DNA of 39,851 bases from Oscillospiraceae bacterium (lineage in GTDB: Bacteria > Bacillota > Clostridia > Oscillospirales > Oscillospiraceae), in assembly GCA_017435615.1 (NCBI GenBank), contig JAFSET010000052.1, positions 1-39,851 of the forward strand, written 5' to 3'. Every line of letters starts with the position of its first letter. The stretch's first letter is position 1. The notes beneath the pieces were generated by a model. It did not search any database and was not told the DNA's origin. It saw only the letters and a program-made list of their open reading frames with translations. Positions 21,452-34,455 of this stretch are shown piece by piece. The translations under genes were made by a program, and so were the position numbers.

Positions 21452-22417
21452 CTAATTGATCTCGTGTATACGCGGTCTGCGATCAATGGGATACTGGATC
21501 AGGGCACTGCCGTCCAAATCCTCACGGTGTAAATACACGGCGTTGATCTGACTGTTTTCATAGGTGGTGTAGTAGTAAATGCCTTTGTTGGTGTTGCAGC
21601 AACTGGAATAGACGGTTTTTTCATAACGCTCACCGACTTTTACACAGCCTTCTTGCTGGCATACGCTGCCTAAAATGTGAAAAAACTGATTGACTGATAG
21701 GGACTCATCCTTAGGCTTGACGCTGTGCAGCTTTGTAAAGGCTGCCCGGATAAATCTGGAGCCGGAGGACAGATCTCCCGGAAGTCCTATAGCGCCCATC
21801 CCCCTGCTGTATGGGGACAGGGGAATGGCTGGCGCAAACCGGTTTTCCGGTGGCTCGTCAGAAATACCCAGATGATCTATGATCCGATGCAGATGATATT
21901 CAAAAGGTGGGCTGTTGGTCAGTACGCCGAAGGGGTCGTCGGTGATCTGCAGCCCGGTTTTAAGCGGTTCTATGGCAAAGCTTTGGGTCTTGTCTGCAAT
22001 CATCCAATGCAGTGGTGTCAGGGAAAATGCGGCAGAGAAGGGGATCGCTCCGATTTTTGTGTTTTTCAAAAGCTCCACAGCTTCTTCGGCTGTTTCACAC
22101 TGCCGTAGCACCCATGGGATAAGCTCAAAGGGGGCAACAGCATCTTCGGTGTTGTCATCGTAGTGGGCATTTCCCGGGAAATTCAGCCCTGCCATGGCAA
22201 GCCCTTTTTCGTTGACTGCATCATAGTATAGCGGATAGTTCTCACTTACCGTTGCCATACCGATCAATGCGTAATGTCGGTCAGCGCTGTCTGCCTTGCG
22301 GAAGTGAAAGGGAAAACCTCTTGGGGTAATGGTTACAGCCTCTTGATAACTGAATTCCAAATCCAGGTTTCTGCCGAAATAATGATCCTGTGTTAAAAAG
22401 CTGATAGCGGTACACAT
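21452..22417 (-). CDS. bsh: Conjugated bile acid (bile salt) hydrolase
   Basis: 321 residues, choloylglycine hydrolase family (Ntn hydrolase). The mature nucleophile is Cys2 (MCTAISF). Other active-site residues are in place: Arg16 and Asp19 in GRNLDLEFSY, Asn79 in AGLNF, Asn169 in VLTNSP, and the Arg of GLPGDLSSGSRFIRAAF near 221-224. The C-terminus (GIYYYTTYENSQINAV) matches characterised conjugated bile acid hydrolases more closely than penicillin V acylases. It hydrolyses glycine- or taurine-conjugated bile salts. No signal peptide, so cytoplasmic. AAAGGAGG precedes the ATG. A 13-bp palindrome lies near the promoter. This gene is the clearest sign of a gut habitat. Confidence 0.9.
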   Translation of the reverse strand: MCTAISFLTQDHYFGRNLDLEFSYQEAVTITPRGFPFHFRKADSADRHYALIGMATVSENYPLYYDAVNEKGLAMAGLNFPGNAHYDDNTEDAVAPFELIPWVLRQCETAEEAVELLKNTKIGAIPFSAAFSLTPLHWMIADKTQSFAIEPLKTGLQITDDPFGVLTNSPPFEYHLHRIIDHLGISDEPPENRFAPAIPLSPYSRGMGAIGLPGDLSSGSRFIRAAFTKLHSVKPKDESLSVNQFFHILGSVCQQEGCVKVGERYEKTVYSSCCNTNKGIYYYTTYENSQINAVYLHREDLDGSALIQYPIDRRPRIHEIN

Positions 22418-22538: not shown

Positions 22539-23198
22539 ATGCTTACCTATGATCATGTTATACAAAGTGAAGCAATTAAGACTTATATTATACGGGCCGA
22601 CGAGTCCCTGGGGGCACTGGGCTATACAGAGCACAGCTTTTCCCATGTGCTGCATGTGGCACGGACTGCCGGTTATATTCTCAGAACGCTGGGCTTTGAG
22701 GAGCGAACAGTGGAGCTGGCTAAGATCGCGGGATATCTTCACGATATCGGAAATCTGGTGAACCGGAAGGATCATTCTCAGTCCGGTGCAGTGATGGCCT
22801 GGAGTATTTTGCACGATATGGGCTGTGATCCAGGAGAACTTGCCACCATCGTGACAGCTATCGGAAACCATGATGAAGGCACCGGTGTGCCTGTCAATGC
22901 GGTAGCCGCAGCATTGATTCTTGCGGACAAAGCCGACGTGCGTCGCAGCCGTGTGCGCAACAAGGATATCTCCACCTTTGATATTCACGACCGTGTGAAT
23001 TATTCGGTGATCGAGTCTGCCATGACCGTCAGCGAGGACAAGTCTGTGGTCAGACTGAAGCTGAAGATCGACAATCAGTTCGGCTCTGTGATGGACTATT
23101 TTGAGATTTTTATGGGACGTATGCTGCTTTGCCGCAAGGCGGCGGAAAAGCTGGGAATGGCTTTTAAATTGGACATCAACGATCAGCAGCTTATTTGA
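22539..23198 (+). CDS. HD-domain phosphohydrolase
   Basis: 219 residues. The HD superfamily metal site is visible: His36 in HSFSHVLHV, the His68-Asp69 doublet in GYLHDIGN, His79 and His111-Asp112 in the HSQSG and NHDEG segments, and Asp130 in LADKAD. The C-terminal part (KSVVRLKLKID and the following helix) is typical of a subgroup of Firmicute HD proteins. It probably hydrolyses a phosphoester or nucleotide; the substrate is unknown. ATG 22539 has GAGG upstream (22525-22528), and a TATAAT at 22508-22513 precedes it. The glycosidase gene starts nine bases after its stop, so the two are co-transcribed. Confidence 0.82.
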   Translation: MLTYDHVIQSEAIKTYIIRADESLGALGYTEHSFSHVLHVARTAGYILRTLGFEERTVELAKIAGYLHDIGNLVNRKDHSQSGAVMAWSILHDMGCDPGELATIVTAIGNHDEGTGVPVNAVAAALILADKADVRRSRVRNKDISTFDIHDRVNYSVIESAMTVSEDKSVVRLKLKIDNQFGSVMDYFEIFMGRMLLCRKAAEKLGMAFKLDINDQQLI

Positions 23199-23206
23199 GG
23201 GGGCTT

Positions 23207-24664
23207 ATGGAAAAGTATATTTATTGTAAAGAGGCCCTGCCCAAGCCTATTTTAGATGGCCATCAGGACTGGATTGATCTGTATTACAGAACCTGGGAGC
23301 TTGCATTTCAAAATGTGGAGTATATTGATCAGCAGGGCTGGAAGCCCCAGATGACCTGTATGCCCGGGGTCAATACCATTTGGCAGTGGGATAGCTGTTT
23401 GATGACCTTTATCACTAACTATGCTAACGGAACTATCACAGCTTTGAATAACCTGGATAATTTGTACCATCTGCGCCGGAAATCTGACGGCTATATGAGC
23501 ATGGCTTACCGTATTTCTACGGAGCAGCCGGCCTGGCCCGGGCGGATCAATCCGCCCTTGATGGCCTGGGCGGAGTGGGATGCCTATCAGGTTTCCGGGG
23601 ACAGGGATCGGTTAAAGTCTGTACTGCCTGCACTGGAAGGAAACTATCAGTTTATCGAAAATAACCGGCGTGGAGTGACCGGCCTTTATTGGTTTGAGGA
23701 CCCCGGCTCCAGCGGCATGGATAATGCACCCCGTGGTCCCTACGCCTGGCCGGCTTTGGACGGCGCAGGCATCTGCTATGTGGACCTTGCCTGTCAGCAG
23801 GCCCTGTCGGCAAAATGCCTGAGCAAGATCTGTGAAGTACTGGGCGAGCCTTCCAAAGCGGAATTCTATCTTTCAGAGCAGGGCAGGATCAACGCGCTGA
23901 TCAATCAGTACCATTGGAGCGAGCAGGCTGGTTTCTATTTCGATTTCTTTGGACGCACAGATCCTGCCACCAAGGTAAAGTACATTAACAGCAAGACCGC
24001 AGCAGCCTTTTGGACCGTGCTTTGCGGTGCGGCACAGGGACATCGATTGGAACGGATGCTGGAGCACCTTTTAAATCCCAATGAGTTTTATACAAAGGTT
24101 CCCTTTGCTACCTTGTCCAAGGACGATCCAAACTATGATCCCACCGGTGGTTATTGGTTGGGAGGTGTATGGGCACCTACCAATTTTGCACTGATTCGCG
24201 GTCTTGTGGAAAATGGACGGACAGACATTGCGAAAAAAGCTGCAGTCGACTACCTGGATGCTGTCTGCAGGGTATTCCATACCCCGGAGTACACCACCAT
24301 ATGGGAGTGCTACAGTCCGGAGGCGTATTTGCCTGCTACGGCAGAGGCAGGGGAGTGGGTCCGCCCTGATTTTGTTGGTTGGAGCGGTTTGGCCCCTGTG
24401 ACGATGCTGATTGAAAATATCATTGGTCTGCGTTTCGATGCCCGGCACAATACCGTGCACTTCCGTTTGCCCTCCGAGGGAACAGTGGGCCTGGAGAACA
24501 TGAAATTTAACGGTCGCACCCTCAGCGTTGTCTTTGGCCGACGGGAAGCGCATCACATCCGGGTTAAAACAACTGAGTCTGTTACGCTGAAAGTATATGA
24601 AGAAATTTCGATGCAGGTACATAATTTTGAGGTGGCTGCCGGTGAACATTTACTCCGAGTATGA
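23207..24664 (+). CDS. GH63/MGH1-like (alpha/alpha)6-barrel glycoside hydrolase
   Basis: 485 residues without a signal peptide, so an intracellular glycosidase acting on an imported sugar. The pattern is that of the MGH1-like/GH63 and trehalase clan: CMPGVNTIWQWDSCLM (51-66), INPPLMAWAEWDAY, PGSSGMDNAPR with Asp172 as likely acid, LGGVWAPTNFALIRGL (318-333), TIWECYSPE with Glu367 as likely base, and FVGWSGLAPV (389-398). The catalytic roles are proposed by analogy. ATG 23207 is chosen because GAGG lies six bases before it; the in-frame TTG at 23195 is within the end of the HD gene. The exact substrate (alpha-glucoside, mannosyl-glycerate or other) cannot be told. Confidence 0.78.
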   Translation: MEKYIYCKEALPKPILDGHQDWIDLYYRTWELAFQNVEYIDQQGWKPQMTCMPGVNTIWQWDSCLMTFITNYANGTITALNNLDNLYHLRRKSDGYMSMAYRISTEQPAWPGRINPPLMAWAEWDAYQVSGDRDRLKSVLPALEGNYQFIENNRRGVTGLYWFEDPGSSGMDNAPRGPYAWPALDGAGICYVDLACQQALSAKCLSKICEVLGEPSKAEFYLSEQGRINALINQYHWSEQAGFYFDFFGRTDPATKVKYINSKTAAAFWTVLCGAAQGHRLERMLEHLLNPNEFYTKVPFATLSKDDPNYDPTGGYWLGGVWAPTNFALIRGLVENGRTDIAKKAAVDYLDAVCRVFHTPEYTTIWECYSPEAYLPATAEAGEWVRPDFVGWSGLAPVTMLIENIIGLRFDARHNTVHFRLPSEGTVGLENMKFNGRTLSVVFGRREAHHIRVKTTESVTLKVYEEISMQVHNFEVAAGEHLLRV

Positions 24665-24801: not shown

Positions 24802-26190
24802 ATGAAAAAACGAGTGCGAAGACTTTGCACAGCGTTGTTGCTGCTGACATTGGGCGTAGGTCTTTTGTCAGGCTGCGGCAAGGAGGAAGAGGTGGTTACA
24901 ACGGATCTTTTAAGAGTTGGTATCCTGAGTGATATCCATGTGGGTTTTCACGACAGTGCCCAGCAGTCGGACCGATTTGAAAAGGCCCTGATGTTCTTTA
25001 AAAACAAGGGTGTGGATGCGGTTTTGATCGCCGGTGACCTGCAGGAGCACAGCAGTGCCACCAAAGCAATCCCTTGGATCGAGGAGGTTGCAGACATTTG
25101 GTTCCGGGTATTTCCGGACAGCAAGAATGATCTGACCGGTGAACGGGTAGAACCGCTGATGATCTACGGTAACCACGATATCGGTCTTGTGGAGGCCGAG
25201 TATTGGCCTGAGTCTCTTGGCGAATACCAGGATGCATGGCTGAAGGAAGTAAAGGGCTACCAGTTTGTGGGTGTGAACTACACAAAAGAGGGCACAGAGC
25301 TGGCTGCCAATTTGGTGGGCAAGGCAGAGGCCCTGAGTGAGGACAAGCCCTTTTTCTTCTGTCAGCATCAGCCGGTGGTTGATACTGTTCTGGGCGAAAG
25401 CGAAGGTCTTTTGGGAACCGGCGTGCCGATGTACGATGTGTTGCGCAGCTTTGAAAACTGTGTGGTGTTTACCGGACATACCCATATTCCCATTACGGAC
25501 GAACGTTCCATTTGGCAGACCGACAGCAAAAAGGGTGCAAGATTTACAGCTATCAACTGCGCAACGATCAACTACGGCTGGCTGAAATCCTACACGGATA
25601 TGGACATTAATGGCTGCGCGGACGATACTCAGCAGGGTATGTACATGACGGTGGACGGTCCCAATGTTCATATTGAACGCTACAGCTTCTTTGATATGGA
25701 ACTAATCTACGATGCAGAAACGACCTCCATCGATATGAGCCAGGCGGAGCAGATTGGTGCGCCCTGGGTGTTTGACGCTACTGAGAAAAAGCACCGTCCT
25801 TATGACTATGATACCCGTCAGCTCAAAGCCGGGCAGCCTGCTTTCCCGGAAGGTGCCCAGTTGGACGTCAGCAGTGTTGGCCAAACGATCGTCAACATTT
25901 TTGTGCCGGCGGCTTTGGTGGATTCCCCCGAGGGTTACAGTGACCTGATCCAGTCTTATTATGCTGAGGCTGTGGATCTTAGCACCGGTGAGGTGGTTGC
26001 CACAGCGGAGGTTGCTACGGAGCACCATGTGGATATCGATGAGCGTCGCCTGCAAAAAGAGGTATTTATGGGCCTGGAAGGCTTGGAGCCCGGTGTGACC
26101 TACGAACTGCGAGTTTACGCCCGGGAGTGCTATCAAAAGACCAGTGATCCTTTGATCGCACAGATCACGACTTTGGAAAAAACAGACTGA
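24802..26190 (+). CDS. Metallophosphoesterase lipoprotein
   Basis: 462 residues. A lipoprotein signal peptide ends in LLSGC, with Cys25 as the lipid-bearing residue. The calcineurin-like phosphoesterase domain carries all expected metal ligands: Asp44 and His46 (LSDIH), Asp79 (AGDLQE), Asn124-His125-Asp126 (GNHD), His189 (CQHQP) and His226/His228 (GHTH). A second domain from about residue 340 is a fibronectin-type-III-like beta sandwich (FPEGAQLDV, GLEPGVTYELRVYA). It should act on a phosphoester outside the cell, tethered to the membrane. The following gene encodes a much larger paralogue of the same two domains, 62 bases downstream, probably in one transcript. RBS GGAGG precedes ATG 24802. 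Substrate unknown. Confidence 0.88.
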   Translation: MKKRVRRLCTALLLLTLGVGLLSGCGKEEEVVTTDLLRVGILSDIHVGFHDSAQQSDRFEKALMFFKNKGVDAVLIAGDLQEHSSATKAIPWIEEVADIWFRVFPDSKNDLTGERVEPLMIYGNHDIGLVEAEYWPESLGEYQDAWLKEVKGYQFVGVNYTKEGTELAANLVGKAEALSEDKPFFFCQHQPVVDTVLGESEGLLGTGVPMYDVLRSFENCVVFTGHTHIPITDERSIWQTDSKKGARFTAINCATINYGWLKSYTDMDINGCADDTQQGMYMTVDGPNVHIERYSFFDMELIYDAETTSIDMSQAEQIGAPWVFDATEKKHRPYDYDTRQLKAGQPAFPEGAQLDVSSVGQTIVNIFVPAALVDSPEGYSDLIQSYYAEAVDLSTGEVVATAEVATEHHVDIDERRLQKEVFMGLEGLEPGVTYELRVYARECYQKTSDPLIAQITTLEKTD

Positions 26191-26252
26191 TATGATTATG
26201 TGCTTACCCCCGAAAGGGTTAATAATTACTGAATTAAAGGTGGTACAGTAAA

Positions 26253-29200
26253 ATGAGCAAGAAACTGATCAGCATGCTTTTGGCTCTGGTTATGGTACTG
26301 TCCCTGGCTGCGCCGGTCATCCCGGCTGCTGCAGAGGAGACGGAAGCTGTTTCCGAGACCGTGAGCGAAAGCACAAGCGACCTGCGTATGGGTGTCCTTA
26401 GTGATATCCATATAAGCTACGACTATGTAGATGAGGTTTACGGCAACGTTACAGGACACTTCAACGGTGTACAGCCCAGCCGTTTTGAAAAGGCATTGCG
26501 CTTTTTCAAGGCACAGGGTGTAGATGCCGTTGTGGTGGCCGGTGACCTGCAGGAAGCCTCCGGCACCGATGCAGCAAACCTGGATAAGCAGAAGGACTGG
26601 CTGCAGACGGTGGTGGACATTTGGTTCAAGGTGTTCCCTGAAAAGCAGGGAGAAGAGGGCTATGTAGAACCGATTTTCATCTACGGCAACCATGACTCTG
26701 CCCTGGTCAGCAATCAGTACTGGCCTGAGGAGTTGGGCAGCTATGAGGATGTCTTCGTCAAGGAAGTAAACGGATATTCCTTTGTTTGCGCCCACAACGC
26801 TAAGGAAAACCTGGCGACACCCTTGCTGGAGAAGGTTGCCCCCCAAAATGCGGATAAGCCCATTTTCTATATTCAGCACTGTCCCGTTGCATACACCGTC
26901 CCCGGTGATTACGGCTACGGCTCGGGCTACGGCCAGGTAGGCTGGAATAATGTGGCACCCTACCACAACGCCGTGGTATTCAACGGCCACACCCATGCTC
27001 CGCTGACAGACGAGCGCTGTATTTGGCAGGGTGACGAGGGTAATGAAGGCCAGTTTACGGTCATCAACACCGCAACCATCAACTATACCGGCCTGAGCAA
27101 TGACGGAATGAGCGTCAACAGCTATGCAGGCAACGCCCAGCAGACCGAGCACGGTATGCTGGTGGATGTTTACGGCTCTGAGCTGAATATCGAGCGCTAC
27201 AGCTTCAACGATATGACCATCGATACGGACAGCGGCGCAGTATCCGGCGAGCCTGTAAAGATCGGCGAGACCTGGTCCTTTGATGCCTGTGACGCCACAG
27301 ACCGTCCCTATGCCTACGATTCCCGCCATGCCAATGCCAACGCCCCTGTATTTCCTGAGGGCGCTCAGATCACGGTAGAGTCCATCATAGATACCGCTGT
27401 AACCGTGAGCCTTCCTGCTGCCAGCCTGACAGCGCCTGCCGGCTTCAGTGACATGATCGAAGGCTATGTAGTGGAAGCCTGTGACCCCACCAGTGGAAAG
27501 GTGGAGGCCGTGGGCCGCGTTGCAACCTCCTATCATGTGGATGATAAGGCGGATGTATACGAAGCTACATATACTGTCAAGGTCTCCGGACTGAAGGCAG
27601 GCACCAACTATATCCTGAAAGCCTATGCCCAGGAGTTCTTTGACAAGCGCTCCCAGGCCCTGGAGCTGGCGGTTACCACTACCGGTGAGCTTGCTTCCTA
27701 CCGTGTAGGCGACCTGGATAAAAATGGCACTGTGGATGCAGAAGATCTTGCCTACCTGAATGAGGTGCTGAGTGATACAGGCAACGATCTTTATAATGGG
27801 GATGCGGATATTGACGGCAACGGTATTTTGGAGTACCGGGATGTTACCGAGCTGCAGGCGATTTTGGACGGCAGCCGTGTAGCCTATCCGGAGTCTGATG
27901 ACCTGATGGACCTGGTTAGCGCAGTTAAGCTGACCGGCGTGTCTACCAGCACCAACTATCAGCCTGTAGACTACGGCACGAAGATCCAAAACAGCGTTGT
28001 ACGGGGCAACTCCAACCAGGCTGTGAAGACCTGGACAACCAACTATGCCTATTATCCCATTACAACGATGTATTTCTCTGAGCCGGTGGACCTTTCCGGT
28101 TATACCCACCTGAGCTTTGATACGCTGTTTGAAAACGAGTACAATCTGTCTGACTCCTACCGCAAGCGCTGGCTGAGCCTGAGCTTTATCTCCGGCGAGC
28201 AGGAGCAGGTGGCCTCCTACGGCTCTATGAACTTCGACAGCGCAGGAGACGGCTGGACAACCACGACGGTTGCACTGGTCAATTTGAAGAATATTGATCT
28301 TTCTGCTGTGACCGGTATTCGGTTCAGTCATAACTTTGACTATTACGAAGGCCGTTTTGACGGCGTAACCGAGCATGCCATTTATTGGGACAACTTCTAC
28401 GGCTCCACCGCAGAGGGCGCCGATACCGACCTGCTTTACACCGCAACCATCGATGGCGGTGAGGCAATCTACGGTGCCGGCTATACGAAGAACTCCAACC
28501 ACGCAGTGCTGTCCACCGGCGGTACCGTGGATGTGACACTGGAGAAGTCCCTGGTGCTGTCTGACTACGCAGGCTTTAACGTGTATATGCGTACACCGGT
28601 CAGCACCACGGTAAGTGTGCAGCCTTACGATGCCGAGGGCAATCTGCTCGGCACGGCCGCAAGCATTGAAAGCACCTATATTTATCAGAACAAGACCATC
28701 TCCACAGCAGATTTTGCAGTGGAGGAGGGGACTGTTGCCGCAGGCCTGCGCTTCACCTATAGCTGCGAGAGCTTGCTGCTGGATACTATGTCTGTCCGTG
28801 CATCCAAGGATACCGACCTGATCGGTACCGCTGACGGTGTTGCCGCCATCGGTGAGGGCGTTTCTGCCAATATCGTGCTGGACGGCACCAACGGTTCCAA
28901 TAACGCCCTGTATGTAGCTGCTGAAAATCAGGTCAGCGGCGGCGTAGAGCTGAGCTTTGCAGAAGCACTGGATCTGTCCCAGGCACCGTATCTTCGTTTG
29001 GACCTGAAGATGGAAAACACCGACACCGGCTTTGCTGTCAGCCTGTACGATGCTGAGGACACTGCTGTTTGGACCAGCGGTGACATGACTGCCGCTTCCT
29101 CTGAGGGTAATTACGCCACCTATGAGCTGGATATGAGCACCGCAGATCTGTCTGAGGTCGCCAAGATTGCAGTCAGCTTTGATTTGGCAGCCGACGGTGA

Positions 29201-32200
29201 AGTGTGGATCGACAATTTGAAGGCCTGTGATCCCATGGGTGACTTCTTCAGTGCATCCACCAGCCTGATCGGACCTTCTGCGGTTCAGGATGGATTTATC
29301 TGCGAGATCAGTGACTTTGACGGTCATGACAACGTTCTGCACTGGTATTCCGACCCGGCTGCCAATGCAGGTACTAACTCCGCATGGCCCGGTGAGACTG
29401 TCATTTACACATGGAAGGATGTCAATGTGTTGAACCATACCGGCTATACCGGTTCCTATGACTATCTGGAGTTTGACATTAAGACCAGCGGTATGTACAT
29501 TGCAATGTATCTGACTGTAAAGGATGCATCCGGCGCAACCTTAGGCACCACCGGTGAATACCGTATTTCCTATGATCAGGAATGGTCCACCTTCCGTGTG
29601 GATGCTGCTACCCTGAAGATGTCCGCCGAGGACTTTAACAAGATCGCTCAGGTTACCATCGGCTGGAACTGGCAGCATCAGCATATCAACGGAACAGTAG
29701 CCCGTTATGTTGCGGATGTGTATATCGATAATATGGGTCTTCGCAGTATTCCTGCTGAGAGCAAGGATATGTTGGACAGCCTGACACTGGTGCAAAACAG
29801 TGACTGGTGGACCGGCGCCAACGGTAAGTTTACCGGCGGCGGCTGGAAATTCCAGTCTGAGGTGACCGCAGACAGCGATGACGCACTGATGTTCTACCGC
29901 AGTGCCACCTCTCAGGGCATTTCCTATGGCTCCAAGACCCTGTATATGTACTTCAATGAGCCTATCGCACTGGAAAGCGGATGGTCCGTAAAACTGGATG
30001 CCATTAAGCACAATTACAACGCTTCCGGCGCCAAGGTGCAGATCATCGGCTCTGACAACGCAAAATACGATCTGTTCAGTTTTACCCATGCAGAGGCTGG
30101 TGTTCACAGCTACAGCACCTTGGTGGATGCGATTTCCGGCTTTGATCCTGAAACCACCACAGTAAAGGGCTTGTACTTCACCTATCCCATGAACCCGGAT
30201 TCTACCATGGATAAGGCCGCCAACGGCTACCTGGTACTGGACAATCTGAGTGTCTTCATTCCTGAGCCGATGGACGAGGATGACTTCCTGTATACGGCAA
30301 CCTGCCCTGTTGGTGAAAACCAGACAGCGGTAACCAATCATTCTCTGAGTGCCTGGAAGATCACACCTACAGCAACCGGCTGGAGCTATCCTCAGTTCAC
30401 GATGGCAGCACCGGTGGATATTTCCAATCACACATTGACCTTTGACTTTATGGCCACCAATATGACCAACTTCCGGATGTTGCTTGCCAATATCAATGGC
30501 GATTGGGCGGCAGAAACCCTTGCGACATATTATGATTGTGACAAGTGGTACACGGTAAGCTTTGATCTTTCTGAAAACGGTGCCGGAATTACCTCCATGG
30601 AGAGGTTCAGCTTGGGTATCTGTTTTGGTTCGGACACTGACGACTACGCTCTGTACATTGACAATGTGTCCCTGACAGAAAACGTTGAGGAACCGGAGCC
30701 CACAGAGCCTGAAACAACAGAGCCCGAGGTTACGGAGCCTGAAACCACTGTTGATACAGCGTCTCCCAATGCTGAGGACCCGGGCGATATGCTGGGTGCT
30801 ACCGACACGATCTCCTACAATAAGGCGTATTGGGATAACTATGACGGCACGGATACAGGCCTGACGGCGGTAGTGGATACGGAAACTGTCTATGGCAGCG
30901 CATCGACGAGATCCTGGAGCTTCAAGGCCACCGCTGCTGCCAACAATGCAGAGACCGTCGCACAGTTTGCTATGAAGCATCCTTATGATCTGACCGGCAA
31001 GGTTCTGGTGTTCGATGTGAAGTTTGACAGCACGGATGCTACCCAAACCCTGGCCCTGAAGACCCGGCTCCATGAGGCGGATACCTGGCATGATGTAAGC
31101 ACCAATATCTCTTCGACGGTGAAGGCCGGTTACTGGCAGACCGTTGCGCTGGACTTCTCCGGCAGCATTGTTAACGGTAAGGACCTGACACAGGTGCAGG
31201 AGATCACCTTTACCATGAACTTTGCGTCCAATACAGGCACGGAGCGTGCGGTGTATATCGACAATGTCCGGCTGGCAGATGTGGAGACCATTGAGGATGA
31301 TCTGATCCATTGCAAAGTGGACGGAGGCTCCACCGGAAATCTGTACTGGGTGACGGATGAATACACCTACGGTGACAGCTCCCTGTCCATCCGTGTGGAG
31401 AACAAGACCTCCGGTGATAATGATATTTATTACAATACCCAGTCCCAGTTCGGCAATGATAATCTGCCCAACTTCAAAAATAAGATATTTTCTGCCTATT
31501 TCTATTTCGGTGAGCAGACACCTTATGCAACCTTGCAATTGGTGGATAAGAACTGGAGTGGCGTTAATGCAAGCCCGTTCCGCTTTGAGGCTATAGGTGA
31601 CGGCTGGTATTTAGGCCAGGTGAATACAACACAGATCACAACCCATGCGGCAACCACCGATTTGAGTCAGTGTATCCGCTTCTCCATCAACATTGCGCCC
31701 GGTGCGGTTGTATATGTGGATGATTTGAAAGTATTGCCTGGTGAAACGGTTGATGCTGACTGGACCAATATGTGCTTGGACAGTGGTGCTACCAAGGGCG
31801 AATGGGGTCCGAATACCGAGTATACCTACAGCGAAGGCAGTTTGGTTTCCTTGCGTTATCAGCCTACCGGCGGTTCTTACATTTCCTTCCACACGCAAAA
31901 TGAAGTAAATCGCAATGGTGGTGCGTGGGACGTATATCCTGATTTCTCTGAGGGAATTATCTCTGCATATATCTACTTTGGTGACCAGACACCGTCTGTA
32001 AAGCTGCAGTTGACGGATACTGCGTGGAAAAACTCTACGTCCACTGCAATGAATCTGGAGCCTGTGGGTGATGGTTGGTACCACGCCACGATTGATGTGT
32101 CTTCAATTACTGTCCCGGATGGGTTTAATCCGCAGCAGATCATTCGTATCTATTTGACCTTTACAGCCGGTCAGACTGTCTATATCGATGATATGCACCT

Positions 32201-34265
32201 TCAGCCCGTTCCAAACAATATGGAGGACCATCTGGCCAACTCTCCCGGCGTCTGCAGACCTGCCTCCGGTATTGAAAGCGGTTATGTGATCGAAATTTTG
32301 GACAGCTATGACGGCTATTCCAATGTATTCCATGTTAATTCTGATCCCAATAACGGTGGCGGCACTACCACCAATTGGCCGGCTCAGCCCAGCTATTATG
32401 TGGCGGCCAGCGGTTCTGGGTATGATGCTGCGGACTACGATTATTACGAGTTCAGCTTCAAGGGAACAGGCCACTATTCCGATATCAGTGTTTCCTTCCT
32501 GGATGCCGGCGGTGCGACTCTTGGCTCTGTCAGCGGTTTCCGTCTGAGTCATAAGGAAGCAGACTGGATGACCTTCCGTATCGATGTTGCTTCTGCCGGA
32601 TTGACCGCTGACGAGATCAAGCTGGTCAGAAGAGTATCCTTCGGCTTCAACTGGCAGTATCAGAATGTGGGTGGAACGGCATTGCTGGAGGCAGATCTCT
32701 ACTTTGCAAACTGTGGCTTCCGCGCCAATAACGAGGAAAGCGCAGATCTGCTGGATCAGATCCACTCCATCAAGAATTCCGATTACTGGTACGGCGGATA
32801 TAACAACTATCCCGGTGCCGGCTGGTACTTTGATGACGAAGGTGCCTTTACCTTCTACCGCAGTCCGGAAACCACCGGTATGGGCTATAACCCTAGAAAT
32901 ATGTATGTCTACTTCAAGACACCTGTGACTGTCGAAAACGGTCAGCGACTGTCTTTGGATGTAGTTAATACCAATTTCCCCCAAAAGTCCAAGATCGAAG
33001 TGATCGGTTCTGACGGCAAGTATTATGTGTTCGGCACCATTGCAGAGGCAGGAAGCTACAATGTGACGGTGATTGCCAACAGCATGGCCACCTCCGACGG
33101 CGTAGCCTTCGATCCGGATACGGTTACCATTAAGGGCCTGAAATTCCACAATAATTTCAATGCTGATTCCACTGTGGATTCTACCGTAGGCGGCACTCTG
33201 GCATACAATAATTTTGTGATTCTGCCAGCGTTGCCCAATGCACTGGATGATGCCATTGCAAATTATACCTCTTTGACAAAGCCTTCTGCTGTGGAAGACG
33301 GATTTGTCTGCGAGGTACTTGCTGAAACCGACGATGGCCACACCGATGTTATTCACTGGTATGCCGACCCCAACAATGGGGCCGGTACCACCAGCAACTG
33401 GCCCGGTACCACCAAGCTGTATGTGGAAGCACCTCCTGAGTATGTGGATACCGCAGCGTACGACTATCTGGAGTTTGGCTACAAGCATTATGGCGTGAAG
33501 TATTGGTTTAGCATCGCTGTGTACGATACTGACGGTAATAAGATCGGCAACAACGGCACGACCCATTCCGGCGCTTCGGAGTGGCGCACCAGCGGTGAAA
33601 GCGGCTGGGCAACCCACCGTATTGATCTGGATACCATGGGCTTGACAGCGGAGGAACTAAAGACCGTTGGATGTTTCGAGATTTCTGTAAGCTGGGAGTA
33701 CAATAATGCCAGCGGCACAACCCTCAAGGTAGGCGAAATGTGGATCGATGATCTTCGTTTTGGCTGTGTTGATGAGGAAAGCACGGACCTGATGGACCAT
33801 GTTGTGGAAACCGATCTTTACAAGGATAACGGTGCAACAGTTGGATTTGTTGGAAGTGACTGGTACTGGAATGAGGACGGTGCCTTTACCATTACCAGAA
33901 GCCCGTCTTCTGACGGCTGGAGAGCCATCCGGTTGTATTTTGATGAGGCAATTACTGTGGACAGCGACTGGACAGTTTCCTGTGATTTCGATATCGCCAA
34001 CTTCCACCACGGTGGATCCATTGGCTTGATCGGATCTGACGGCAATGTGTACACATCAATTGCGCCTAACAGCGGCGGACAAAAGACAGTTTCCAAGGCA
34101 GTAACAGCTTTTGTGAACGGCTCTACAGCCTTTGATCCTGCAACAGTTCAAATTGTAGGCATTAAGATTTCCTATAGCTTGGGTACATCCACCACTGTAA
34201 CCGATACCACTGCCGGTGGCTACATGAGCATGGATAACCTGATCTTAACGGATTCTACTCCCTAA
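26253..34265 (+). CDS. Giant secreted metallophosphoesterase with a dockerin and about 13 beta-sandwich modules
   Basis: 2670 residues. Order: signal peptide (1-28, cut near PAAAEE); calcineurin-like phosphoesterase (about 45-340) with Asp51/His53, Asp98, Asn146-His147-Asp148, His209 and His246/His248; fibronectin-III-like domain (about 370-480); type I dockerin (about 484-540) with two calcium loops, DLDKNGTVDAED and DIDGNGILEYRD; then about thirteen modules of 120-170 residues, most ending in a variant of VYIDNLxL, typical of carbohydrate-binding jelly rolls. A Pro-Glu-Thr linker lies at about 1479-1500. A two-module unit of about 330 residues recurs three times (about 1000-1338, 1990-2328, 2330-2670). 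No LPXTG, SLH or membrane anchor is seen at the end; the dockerin could provide attachment. The N-terminal part is paralogous to the lipoprotein upstream. Function of the modules is inferred only. Confidence 0.85.
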   Translation: MSKKLISMLLALVMVLSLAAPVIPAAAEETEAVSETVSESTSDLRMGVLSDIHISYDYVDEVYGNVTGHFNGVQPSRFEKALRFFKAQGVDAVVVAGDLQEASGTDAANLDKQKDWLQTVVDIWFKVFPEKQGEEGYVEPIFIYGNHDSALVSNQYWPEELGSYEDVFVKEVNGYSFVCAHNAKENLATPLLEKVAPQNADKPIFYIQHCPVAYTVPGDYGYGSGYGQVGWNNVAPYHNAVVFNGHTHAPLTDERCIWQGDEGNEGQFTVINTATINYTGLSNDGMSVNSYAGNAQQTEHGMLVDVYGSELNIERYSFNDMTIDTDSGAVSGEPVKIGETWSFDACDATDRPYAYDSRHANANAPVFPEGAQITVESIIDTAVTVSLPAASLTAPAGFSDMIEGYVVEACDPTSGKVEAVGRVATSYHVDDKADVYEATYTVKVSGLKAGTNYILKAYAQEFFDKRSQALELAVTTTGELASYRVGDLDKNGTVDAEDLAYLNEVLSDTGNDLYNGDADIDGNGILEYRDVTELQAILDGSRVAYPESDDLMDLVSAVKLTGVSTSTNYQPVDYGTKIQNSVVRGNSNQAVKTWTTNYAYYPITTMYFSEPVDLSGYTHLSFDTLFENEYNLSDSYRKRWLSLSFISGEQEQVASYGSMNFDSAGDGWTTTTVALVNLKNIDLSAVTGIRFSHNFDYYEGRFDGVTEHAIYWDNFYGSTAEGADTDLLYTATIDGGEAIYGAGYTKNSNHAVLSTGGTVDVTLEKSLVLSDYAGFNVYMRTPVSTTVSVQPYDAEGNLLGTAASIESTYIYQNKTISTADFAVEEGTVAAGLRFTYSCESLLLDTMSVRASKDTDLIGTADGVAAIGEGVSANIVLDGTNGSNNALYVAAENQVSGGVELSFAEALDLSQAPYLRLDLKMENTDTGFAVSLYDAEDTAVWTSGDMTAASSEGNYATYELDMSTADLSEVAKIAVSFDLAADGEVWIDNLKACDPMGDFFSASTSLIGPSAVQDGFICEISDFDGHDNVLHWYSDPAANAGTNSAWPGETVIYTWKDVNVLNHTGYTGSYDYLEFDIKTSGMYIAMYLTVKDASGATLGTTGEYRISYDQEWSTFRVDAATLKMSAEDFNKIAQVTIGWNWQHQHINGTVARYVADVYIDNMGLRSIPAESKDMLDSLTLVQNSDWWTGANGKFTGGGWKFQSEVTADSDDALMFYRSATSQGISYGSKTLYMYFNEPIALESGWSVKLDAIKHNYNASGAKVQIIGSDNAKYDLFSFTHAEAGVHSYSTLVDAISGFDPETTTVKGLYFTYPMNPDSTMDKAANGYLVLDNLSVFIPEPMDEDDFLYTATCPVGENQTAVTNHSLSAWKITPTATGWSYPQFTMAAPVDISNHTLTFDFMATNMTNFRMLLANINGDWAAETLATYYDCDKWYTVSFDLSENGAGITSMERFSLGICFGSDTDDYALYIDNVSLTENVEEPEPTEPETTEPEVTEPETTVDTASPNAEDPGDMLGATDTISYNKAYWDNYDGTDTGLTAVVDTETVYGSASTRSWSFKATAAANNAETVAQFAMKHPYDLTGKVLVFDVKFDSTDATQTLALKTRLHEADTWHDVSTNISSTVKAGYWQTVALDFSGSIVNGKDLTQVQEITFTMNFASNTGTERAVYIDNVRLADVETIEDDLIHCKVDGGSTGNLYWVTDEYTYGDSSLSIRVENKTSGDNDIYYNTQSQFGNDNLPNFKNKIFSAYFYFGEQTPYATLQLVDKNWSGVNASPFRFEAIGDGWYLGQVNTTQITTHAATTDLSQCIRFSINIAPGAVVYVDDLKVLPGETVDADWTNMCLDSGATKGEWGPNTEYTYSEGSLVSLRYQPTGGSYISFHTQNEVNRNGGAWDVYPDFSEGIISAYIYFGDQTPSVKLQLTDTAWKNSTSTAMNLEPVGDGWYHATIDVSSITVPDGFNPQQIIRIYLTFTAGQTVYIDDMHLQPVPNNMEDHLANSPGVCRPASGIESGYVIEILDSYDGYSNVFHVNSDPNNGGGTTTNWPAQPSYYVAASGSGYDAADYDYYEFSFKGTGHYSDISVSFLDAGGATLGSVSGFRLSHKEADWMTFRIDVASAGLTADEIKLVRRVSFGFNWQYQNVGGTALLEADLYFANCGFRANNEESADLLDQIHSIKNSDYWYGGYNNYPGAGWYFDDEGAFTFYRSPETTGMGYNPRNMYVYFKTPVTVENGQRLSLDVVNTNFPQKSKIEVIGSDGKYYVFGTIAEAGSYNVTVIANSMATSDGVAFDPDTVTIKGLKFHNNFNADSTVDSTVGGTLAYNNFVILPALPNALDDAIANYTSLTKPSAVEDGFVCEVLAETDDGHTDVIHWYADPNNGAGTTSNWPGTTKLYVEAPPEYVDTAAYDYLEFGYKHYGVKYWFSIAVYDTDGNKIGNNGTTHSGASEWRTSGESGWATHRIDLDTMGLTAEELKTVGCFEISVSWEYNNASGTTLKVGEMWIDDLRFGCVDEESTDLMDHVVETDLYKDNGATVGFVGSDWYWNEDGAFTITRSPSSDGWRAIRLYFDEAITVDSDWTVSCDFDIANFHHGGSIGLIGSDGNVYTSIAPNSGGQKTVSKAVTAFVNGSTAFDPATVQIVGIKISYSLGTSTTVTDTTAGGYMSMDNLILTDSTP
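27708..27873 (+). other. Dockerin-encoding segment inside the giant phosphoesterase gene
   Basis: Two EF-hand-like calcium loops 32 residues apart, each DxDxNGxx followed by an acidic residue in the last position, each leading into a helix (LAYLNEVL and VTELQAIL). This is the duplicated F-hand arrangement of type I dockerins. It lies between the enzymatic part and the module array; dockerins are more often terminal. Confidence 0.8.
29236..34262 (+). repeat. Three protein-level copies of a two-module unit
   Basis: Copies at about 29236-30270, 32215-33240 and 33241-34262. Each begins with a (G/K)PSAV(Q/E)DGF(I/V)CE or related opening and a (H/N)(W/V)(Y/N)(S/A)DP motif followed by NWPG or AWPG. 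Each has IDNMGLR-like residues mid-unit and a second module with GSD and FDP(E/D/A)T(T/V) signatures. Copies B and C are adjacent and form the C-terminus. Confidence 0.65.
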
Positions 34266-34427: not shown

Positions 34428-34455
34428 TTGACAAATCTTGTTTTATAGATATAAT
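34428..34455 (+). promoter_or_regulatory. Promoter of the lactate/malate-type dehydrogenase gene
   Basis: TTGACA at 34428-34433 and TATAAT at 34450-34455, spacer 16 bp, 55 bases before the ATG. Upstream, GATTATAC and ACAACAT words recur as inverted copies (GTATAATC and ATGTTGT), which may be regulator sites. Confidence 0.7.

Follow-up and report, generated by a model that had tools for sequence, protein, structure and literature searches.

A giant putative phosphoesterase with an internal dockerin-like EF-hand pair and an array of carbohydrate-binding-module-like domains in an Oscillospiraceae genome

Cohesin-dockerin complexes are known to carry glycoside hydrolases, esterases, lyases, and peptidases. 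A 39,851-nucleotide stretch of an Oscillospiraceae bacterium (assembly GCA_017435615.1, contig JAFSET010000052.1, positions 1 to 39,851; hereafter the window) encodes a giant protein in which a predicted phosphoesterase and a dockerin-like segment share one frame, which raises the question of what such an enzyme might act on and whether it would be tethered. We favor, with a probability of roughly 0.4, a dockerin-tethered enzyme that would remove phosphate or phosphodiester substituents from hexosamine-rich glycans, with both the substrate and the tethering predicted. Recurrent phosphoesterase cargo would add the removal of phosphate substituents to the functions of cohesin-dockerin systems. 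It would also suggest that bacteria feed on phosphorylated or zwitterion-modified hexosamine glycans, a substrate class with few known enzymes (PMC10704324).

The open reading frame at 26253-34265 of the forward strand is intact, starts with ATG, encodes 2670 amino acids, and is preceded by a ribosome-binding site (AAAGGTGG, 26236-26243) located 9 bases 5' of the start codon. Its product carries, in order, a hydrophobic N-terminus that is putatively a signal peptide by hydropathy, a calcineurin-like metallophosphoesterase (MPE) domain, a fibronectin type III (FN3)-like domain, a dockerin-like EF-hand pair, and about 13 modules resembling carbohydrate-binding modules (CBMs). Past the N-terminus, neither a membrane-like stretch nor an LPxTG-like motif was found in a scan of the whole protein. 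The same genome (2.27 Mb, 76.6% complete) contains three relatives of the MPE-FN3 part, namely an upstream protein of 462 residues and two longer frames, here called C63 (1601 residues) and C71 (3883 residues), both of which share the MPE-FN3-dockerin order. The features of the giant gene are as follows:

26253-34265, forward strand: whole gene of a predicted secreted MPE-FN3-dockerin-13-module protein of 2670 residues, from the open reading frame and ribosome-binding site
26253-26333, forward strand: signal-peptide-like start, approximate, residues 1-27, from hydropathy
26382-27212, forward strand: calcineurin-like phosphoesterase with all metal ligands, residues about 44-320, from Pfam and individual residues; the C-terminal limit is approximate
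27429-27632, forward strand: core of the FN3-like domain, residues 393-460, from an fn3 match below the Pfam cut-off and the relatives' alignment
27708-27860, forward strand: type I dockerin-like EF-hand pair, residues 486-536, with loops at 27711-27746 and 27807-27842, from sequence, Pfam, and paralogues
27687-27803, forward strand: segment diverged from the C71 paralogue, residues 479-517, with flanks about 97% identical in protein, from paralogue comparison
27873-34262, forward strand: about 13 CBM-like beta-sandwich modules, residues 541-2670, from windowed self-comparison, a motif scan, and a model
29205-30287, 32205-33242, and 33240-34262, forward strand: three copies of a two-module unit, of which only 32205-33242 was modelled

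The domain reading of the original prediction was correct, with the frame intact, the MPE ligands complete, and the FN3-like domain, two-loop dockerin, and some 13 modules in place. On the opposite strand, long open frames face the giant gene, among them one of 1070 residues (26226-29438), and are probably shadows of its codon composition.

By profile and metal ligands, the enzymatic part is a calcineurin-like phosphoesterase, with catalysis predicted from these features. Metallophos (PF00149) was matched with 42.8 bits (cut-off 21.5) when the N-terminal part was scanned alone; in the whole-protein Pfam scan, only Metallophos_2 was reported for this domain, with 18.4 bits and under its cut-off. 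The metal-ligand motif set of calcineurin-like MPEs (D-x-H, GD, GNH, H, and GHxH) is complete, and all ligands are present; in the relatives' alignment of 50 rows, D51 and N146 are kept in 49 and H53, D98, H147, H209, H246, and H248 in all. The FN3-like domain reached 15.4-16.1 bits against an fn3 cut-off of 25, and fn3 was matched in five of the ten rows of relatives' alignment A1 (best E 4.1e-6). NCBIfam gave weak matches to phosphoesterase models for the 50 relatives' rows, two of them anti-phage models, and none of these for the window protein itself. PDB sequence searches with the MPE-FN3 part, and with the EEP part of C71 described below, returned nothing useful.

Both calcium loops of the dockerin-like segment are canonical by eye (DLDKNGTVDAED at residue 487 and DIDGNGILEYRD at residue 519), and the segment also matched EF-hand_1 (E 1.5e-4). 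Scanned alone, it scored 21.1 bits with Dockerin_1 (PF00404; cut-off 22.9, E 3.7e-4), and the corresponding dockerins of C63 and C71 scored 30.8 and 29.2 bits, respectively. In the profile search named by the original prediction, the two paralogues are above the threshold and the window copy falls under it. These two paralogues were the only Dockerin_1 matches in the genome at E 0.001. A classic cellulosome was rejected on this ground, as both dockerin matches in the 76.6%-complete genome lie in MPE giants; no large set of dockerin-borne glycoside hydrolases was found in this genome, of which a quarter may be missing.

Comparison of the paralogues revealed an abrupt difference within this segment. 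Across approximately 1,000 residues, the window and C71 giants are about 97% identical, the first dockerin repeat being the exception. In the flanks, 16 of 469 codons (residues 10-478) and 11 of 514 (residues 521-1034) differ, compared with 21 of 41 in the block of residues 479-520 (one gap excluded). The excess was found both for residue differences (Fisher p 1e-19) and for fourfold sites (7 of 11 in the block versus 81 of 482 in the flanks; Fisher p 8e-4). In a scan with a width of 39 residues, picked after the block had been seen, the highest count was 22, at residue 479, and the highest elsewhere was 5. The second repeat is nearly equal in the two proteins (score 124, versus 131 for identity), and the first repeats of the window giant, C71, and C63 score 60, 49, and 42 against one another. 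The high synonymous change, based on 11 fourfold sites and hence short of certainty, suggests that point selection by itself does not account for the block and that a diverged segment was swapped in. Differences are also seen in the 5' flank and beyond about residue 1035, implying that the two giants are separate loci unless the metagenome-assembled genome was mis-assembled. Because the first dockerin repeats and the C-terminal parts differ around a shared cassette, the paralogues may dock on different partners, and the pair offers a natural experiment on partner change, in which a near-identical N-terminal thousand residues is combined with one differing repeat.

With regard to possible partners, PF00963 detected no cohesin in the genome. 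Out of 136 genomes of the genus, 61 gave a match to the same profile at E 0.001, in 53 cases above the cut-off, and in the family 57 of 200 genomes matched; dockerins occur in 68 of the 136 genus genomes, and 58 contain both (a count that ignores relatedness). It has been reported that InterPro profiles miss ruminococcal cohesins (PMC11557425). By using a custom profile built from 15 cohesins of the genus and family, which recovers solved cohesins at E 6e-14, two places could be detected on contig C32 (E 2.0e-5 and 5.9e-4). Their local rescoring gave 22.5 and 15.3 bits, with none of 2400 shuffled proteins above 6.1, and the hhalign probabilities were 84.5 and 66.7. In both C32 proteins, the cohesin-like domain is N-terminal and a hydrophobic segment is visible by eye at the C-terminus; the two domains are weak candidate partners on seemingly membrane-anchored proteins. 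A scaffoldin with several cohesins was not found by PF00963, and the custom profile gave two single cohesin-like domains in this incomplete genome. Thus, the cohesins called for by the original prediction were absent by Pfam from the genome itself, weakly indicated there by the custom profile, and frequent in the genus. The argument that a lack of cohesins precludes dockerin function was rejected in view of the domains found with the genus and family profile and of the reported profile failures (PMC11557425). Directly upstream of the two C32 proteins, an open frame of 2120 residues with many CxxC-rich repeats by eye was also observed (L193, 3-6362).

The C-terminal array was delineated by a motif scan, which marked 12 places, 11 of them terminal strands and one false, and by inspection, which added two further modules. 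The adjacent pair in the unit 32205-33242 was modelled jointly and yielded two beta-sandwiches with a mean predicted local distance difference test score of 68.3, consistent with a CBM-like fold resembling that of polysaccharide-binding CBMs. Toxins and cupins were also among the first rows when the module model was searched with Foldseek, and Pfam gave only weak sub-threshold matches; glycan binding is predicted from the fold. Modules of the same kind are present in other giants of the genome, one of which has a GH123-type domain.

To what extent is this layout shared? The MPE-FN3-dockerin query matched 10 of 136 genus genomes at E 1e-3, with close matches in its own genome, SIG476 (G219; best E 8e-92), and RGIG7458 from water buffalo colon (G267; best E 5e-91), the latter two both labelled Oscillospiraceae. 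The named relatives nearest to the bacterium were sampled from animal guts. No EF loop was found by motif in the MPE frames listed from the genus relatives. A total of 124 relatives came from named genomes; the best 80 are mostly from Bacteroidales/Bacteroidaceae, Kiritimatiellae, or Verrucomicrobia, many of them from rumen and other herbivore-gut samples, and their listed MPE frames, the majority of about 420-575 residues, are likewise free of EF loops by motif. When genome contigs were scanned with the single giant protein, no relatives were returned. In RGIG7458, a frame of at least 3115 residues (L080, 1-9345, reverse strand) contains three MPE domains, one of a different kind.

Wider sampling detected dockerin-bearing MPEs at the family and order levels. 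In the family sample, 16 of 400 genomes matched; an MPE frame was present in six of the seven stretches read, and in three cases, from two genomes, it carries a C-terminal dockerin over the cut-off. In the order sample, 133 of 394 genomes matched, and 26 of the 29 loci read had an MPE-motif frame; a pair of loops is seen in four of these frames, a fifth has a dockerin truncated at the end of the locus, and a further two show one loop each. Among the first five, L207, L208, L211, and L212, from four genomes that belong to different families within the order, are over the dockerin Pfam cut-off, and L209 had no Dockerin_1 match at E 0.01. Like the giant, the proteins L194, L195, L196, L207, L208, L211, and L212 combine an MPE and a dockerin, in their case over the Pfam cut-offs, and fn3 is also matched in L194, L195, L196, and L208 (over the cut-off only in L196). 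Unlike in the giant, the dockerin is C-terminal and accompanied by a LamG module, their frames of 868-1006 residues (1342 in L208, cut at the locus end) are too short for a 13-module array, and they are placed separately on the MPE tree. This tree of 55 MPE domains is a quick one and has long branches, including two that meet; it leaves out rows with fewer than 220 profile positions, and dockerin labels followed a motif rule, with the window giant, C71, C63, and L208 as special cases and the single-loop L214 and L216 labelled as having none. The dockerin label requires five changes, at least two of them forced by well-supported branches, and the three giants of the genome fall into a single clade (99), surrounded by MPEs of the genus that lack a dockerin. 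More than one gain of dockerins is probable, with the reservation that such counts cannot separate gain from loss. A layout unique to this gene was therefore rejected, given the two further MPE-FN3-dockerin giants in the genome and the MPE-dockerin proteins in the family and order. What remains of the unfamiliar layout noted in the original prediction is the great length and the internal dockerin; in part, the layout is common to some related bacteria.

The genes near relatives and paralogues provide clues to the substrate. Two genes precede the giant on the same strand:

24802-26190, forward strand: tandem MPE-FN3 paralogue of 462 residues with a lipobox-like LLSGCG by eye and no dockerin, from homology and motif
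23195-24664, forward strand: GH63/MGH1-like glycoside hydrolase (GH), with no signal peptide by eye

The counterpart of this lipoprotein in RGIG7458 is 50% identical and lies in a run with GH20, three GH123-type genes, a melibiase (GH36-type), an MPE, a GH109-like gene, and one frame of 184 residues; the gene after the counterpart in SIG476 codes for a melibiase. A GH123-type gene adjoins the C63 giant, and the only NAGLU match of the genome, a GH89, comes after the C71 giant. The GH20, GH123, GH36-type, GH109-like, and GH89 families act largely on hexosamine-containing glycans, and their presence beside relatives and paralogues points to hexosamine-rich glycans. Among more distant relatives, the nine recurrent neighbours found by neighbour clustering are mixed genes. 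The C71 giant further contains an EEP domain, which scores 31.3 bits against a cut-off of 24.5, and two SGNH domains, which score 68.6 and 78.9 bits against a cut-off of 32.9.

On these grounds, the giant might serve as a secreted accessory enzyme of a system degrading hexosamine glycans. The MPE with its FN3-like partner would hydrolyse a phosphate monoester or diester substituent on glycans rich in N-acetylglucosamine (GlcNAc) or N-acetylgalactosamine (GalNAc), and the CBM-like modules would keep the enzyme on the glycan. The dockerin would bind a cohesin-like domain of a membrane-anchored protein of the same cell, placing the enzyme at the surface or in small complexes without a multi-cohesin scaffold. 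A more specific version appears unlikely: that the giants clear phospho-substituents ahead of exo-hexosaminidases, docked singly on membrane cohesins, with specificity changed by exchange of dockerin-repeat blocks.

Several results weigh against a docked glycan phosphoesterase. Besides its Pfam score just under the cut-off, the window dockerin is unlisted by the Dockerin_1 search of its own genome at E 0.001 and receives 3.3 bits from a profile of nine genus dockerins, inside the shuffle range (maximum 4.4). PF00963 is silent in the genome, Pfam scans of the C32 proteins report no cohesin, and none was found for one of the two, C32b, in a sequence search of the PDB. Moreover, the MPE profile is nearest, at weak scores, to nucleases and other phosphodiesterases. 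The dockerin and cohesin results, the internal position of the EF-hand pair, and the situation in RGIG7458, which has giants of the same MPE family and is not among the 68 dockerin-positive genomes, with no EF loop in the listed MPE frames, would all suit a reading in which the pair is a relic, or a spacer that binds calcium for structural reasons, and pairs with no cohesin, the protein being a soluble or glycan-bound phosphoesterase. We regard this as rather unlikely, considering that both loops are canonical, that the paralogue dockerins exceed the cut-off, that the first repeat differs blockwise between paralogues, and that cohesin-like domains exist in the genome along with dockerin-cohesin co-occurrence in the genus.

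Other substrates have to be weighed as well. If the target were a polymer of the bacterial wall, either teichoic acid or capsule, the MPE and EEP domains would cut phosphodiesters, SGNH would take off ester groups, and GH89 and GH123 would remove N-acetylhexosamine (HexNAc) substituents, which fits the union of MPE, EEP, and two SGNH domains in the C71 giant with GH89 adjoining; however, Pfam scans of the window protein gave no wall-binding family, the modules resemble polysaccharide-binding CBMs, and the RGIG7458 run of GH20, GH123, GH36-type, and GH109-like genes reads as degradation of HexNAc/GalNAc glycans, making this target distinctly unlikely. Even less probable is a scavenger of phosphate or nucleosides that acts as a nuclease or as a phosphodiesterase of cyclic nucleotides. 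Although the best PDB profile matches of the MPE are Mre11/SbcD nucleases, Lmo2642, and MJ0936, they reach only E 5e-4 to 0.008, and an array that looks glycan-binding, with GH neighbours, is not expected of such an enzyme. The phosphorylated-glycan substrate proposed in the original prediction draws its support from gene neighbourhood and precedent only.

Two such precedents were found in one study (PMC10704324). GlcNAc-PDase, a secreted clostridial phosphodiesterase of the EEP fold recovered from human-gut DNA, acts on GlcNAc-6-phosphocholine; like the proposed enzyme, it is secreted and acts on a glycan substituent, but its fold differs from the MPE of the giant, and the likeness to C71 holds at the level of the EEP domain only. 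PGAP5/MPPE1 belongs to the metallophosphatase family, as does the giant, and acts on the phosphoethanolamine of glycosylphosphatidylinositol (GPI), but it is a eukaryotic GPI enzyme and is likened here by description only. In the screen of that study, nine candidates included a 'phosphoesterase' and a 'metallophosphatase', and among the eight tested, only the EEP protein was clearly active (PMC10704324).

On the docking side, the pairwise non-cellulosomal cohesin-dockerin glycosidases of Clostridium perfringens and the Limousia mucinolysome (PMC12997984) consist, like the giant, of secreted enzymes from host-associated Clostridia; they carry dockerins or cohesins and target host glycans, and weak dockerin or cohesin signals that escape Pfam have been reported there as well. 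Their cargo consists of glycoside hydrolases and peptidases, in contrast to a phosphoesterase, and Limousia has multi-cohesin scaffoldins, whereas the giant has an internal dockerin followed by about 2100 residues of modules. In the main text of that paper, 'phosphatase' and 'calcineurin' do not occur, and 'phospho' occurs once, in phosphorylases (PMC12997984). Across the open literature, with subscription papers, supplements, and architecture databases outside the scope, no dockerin-borne phosphoesterase or phosphatase cargo was found, nor any described family with exactly the layout of the giant. The polymerase and histidinol phosphatase domain has a fold different from that of the MPE. It is among the abbreviations of PMC5590126, whose passages, like those of PMC2930009, PMC2721979, PMC11557425, and PMC12997984, yielded no dockerin-phosphoesterase cargo.

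Some additional features of the genome were observed. The C71 giant (L031, 2432-14080, reverse strand) unites MPE, FN3, dockerin, EEP, two SGNH domains, and many beta-sandwich modules in one frame, that is, four predicted catalytic domains in a single secreted polypeptide. DUF6273 proteins with signal-peptide-like N-termini by eye lie near the C71 and C63 giants (L038, 4077-6077, and L032, 2-1828, both reverse strand), and 11 GH123-type matches were counted in the incomplete 2.27-Mb genome, some beside or inside giant module proteins. In the window, a perfect TTGACA-16-TATAAT promoter-like site is located 3' of the giant gene (34428-34455), ahead of a frame starting at 34438; the promoter and terminator scan as a whole gave no excess above shuffles. 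Finally, the reverse strand at 21452-22417 encodes a protein of the Choloylglycine hydrolase family (PF02275, 312 bits), which may be a bile salt hydrolase.
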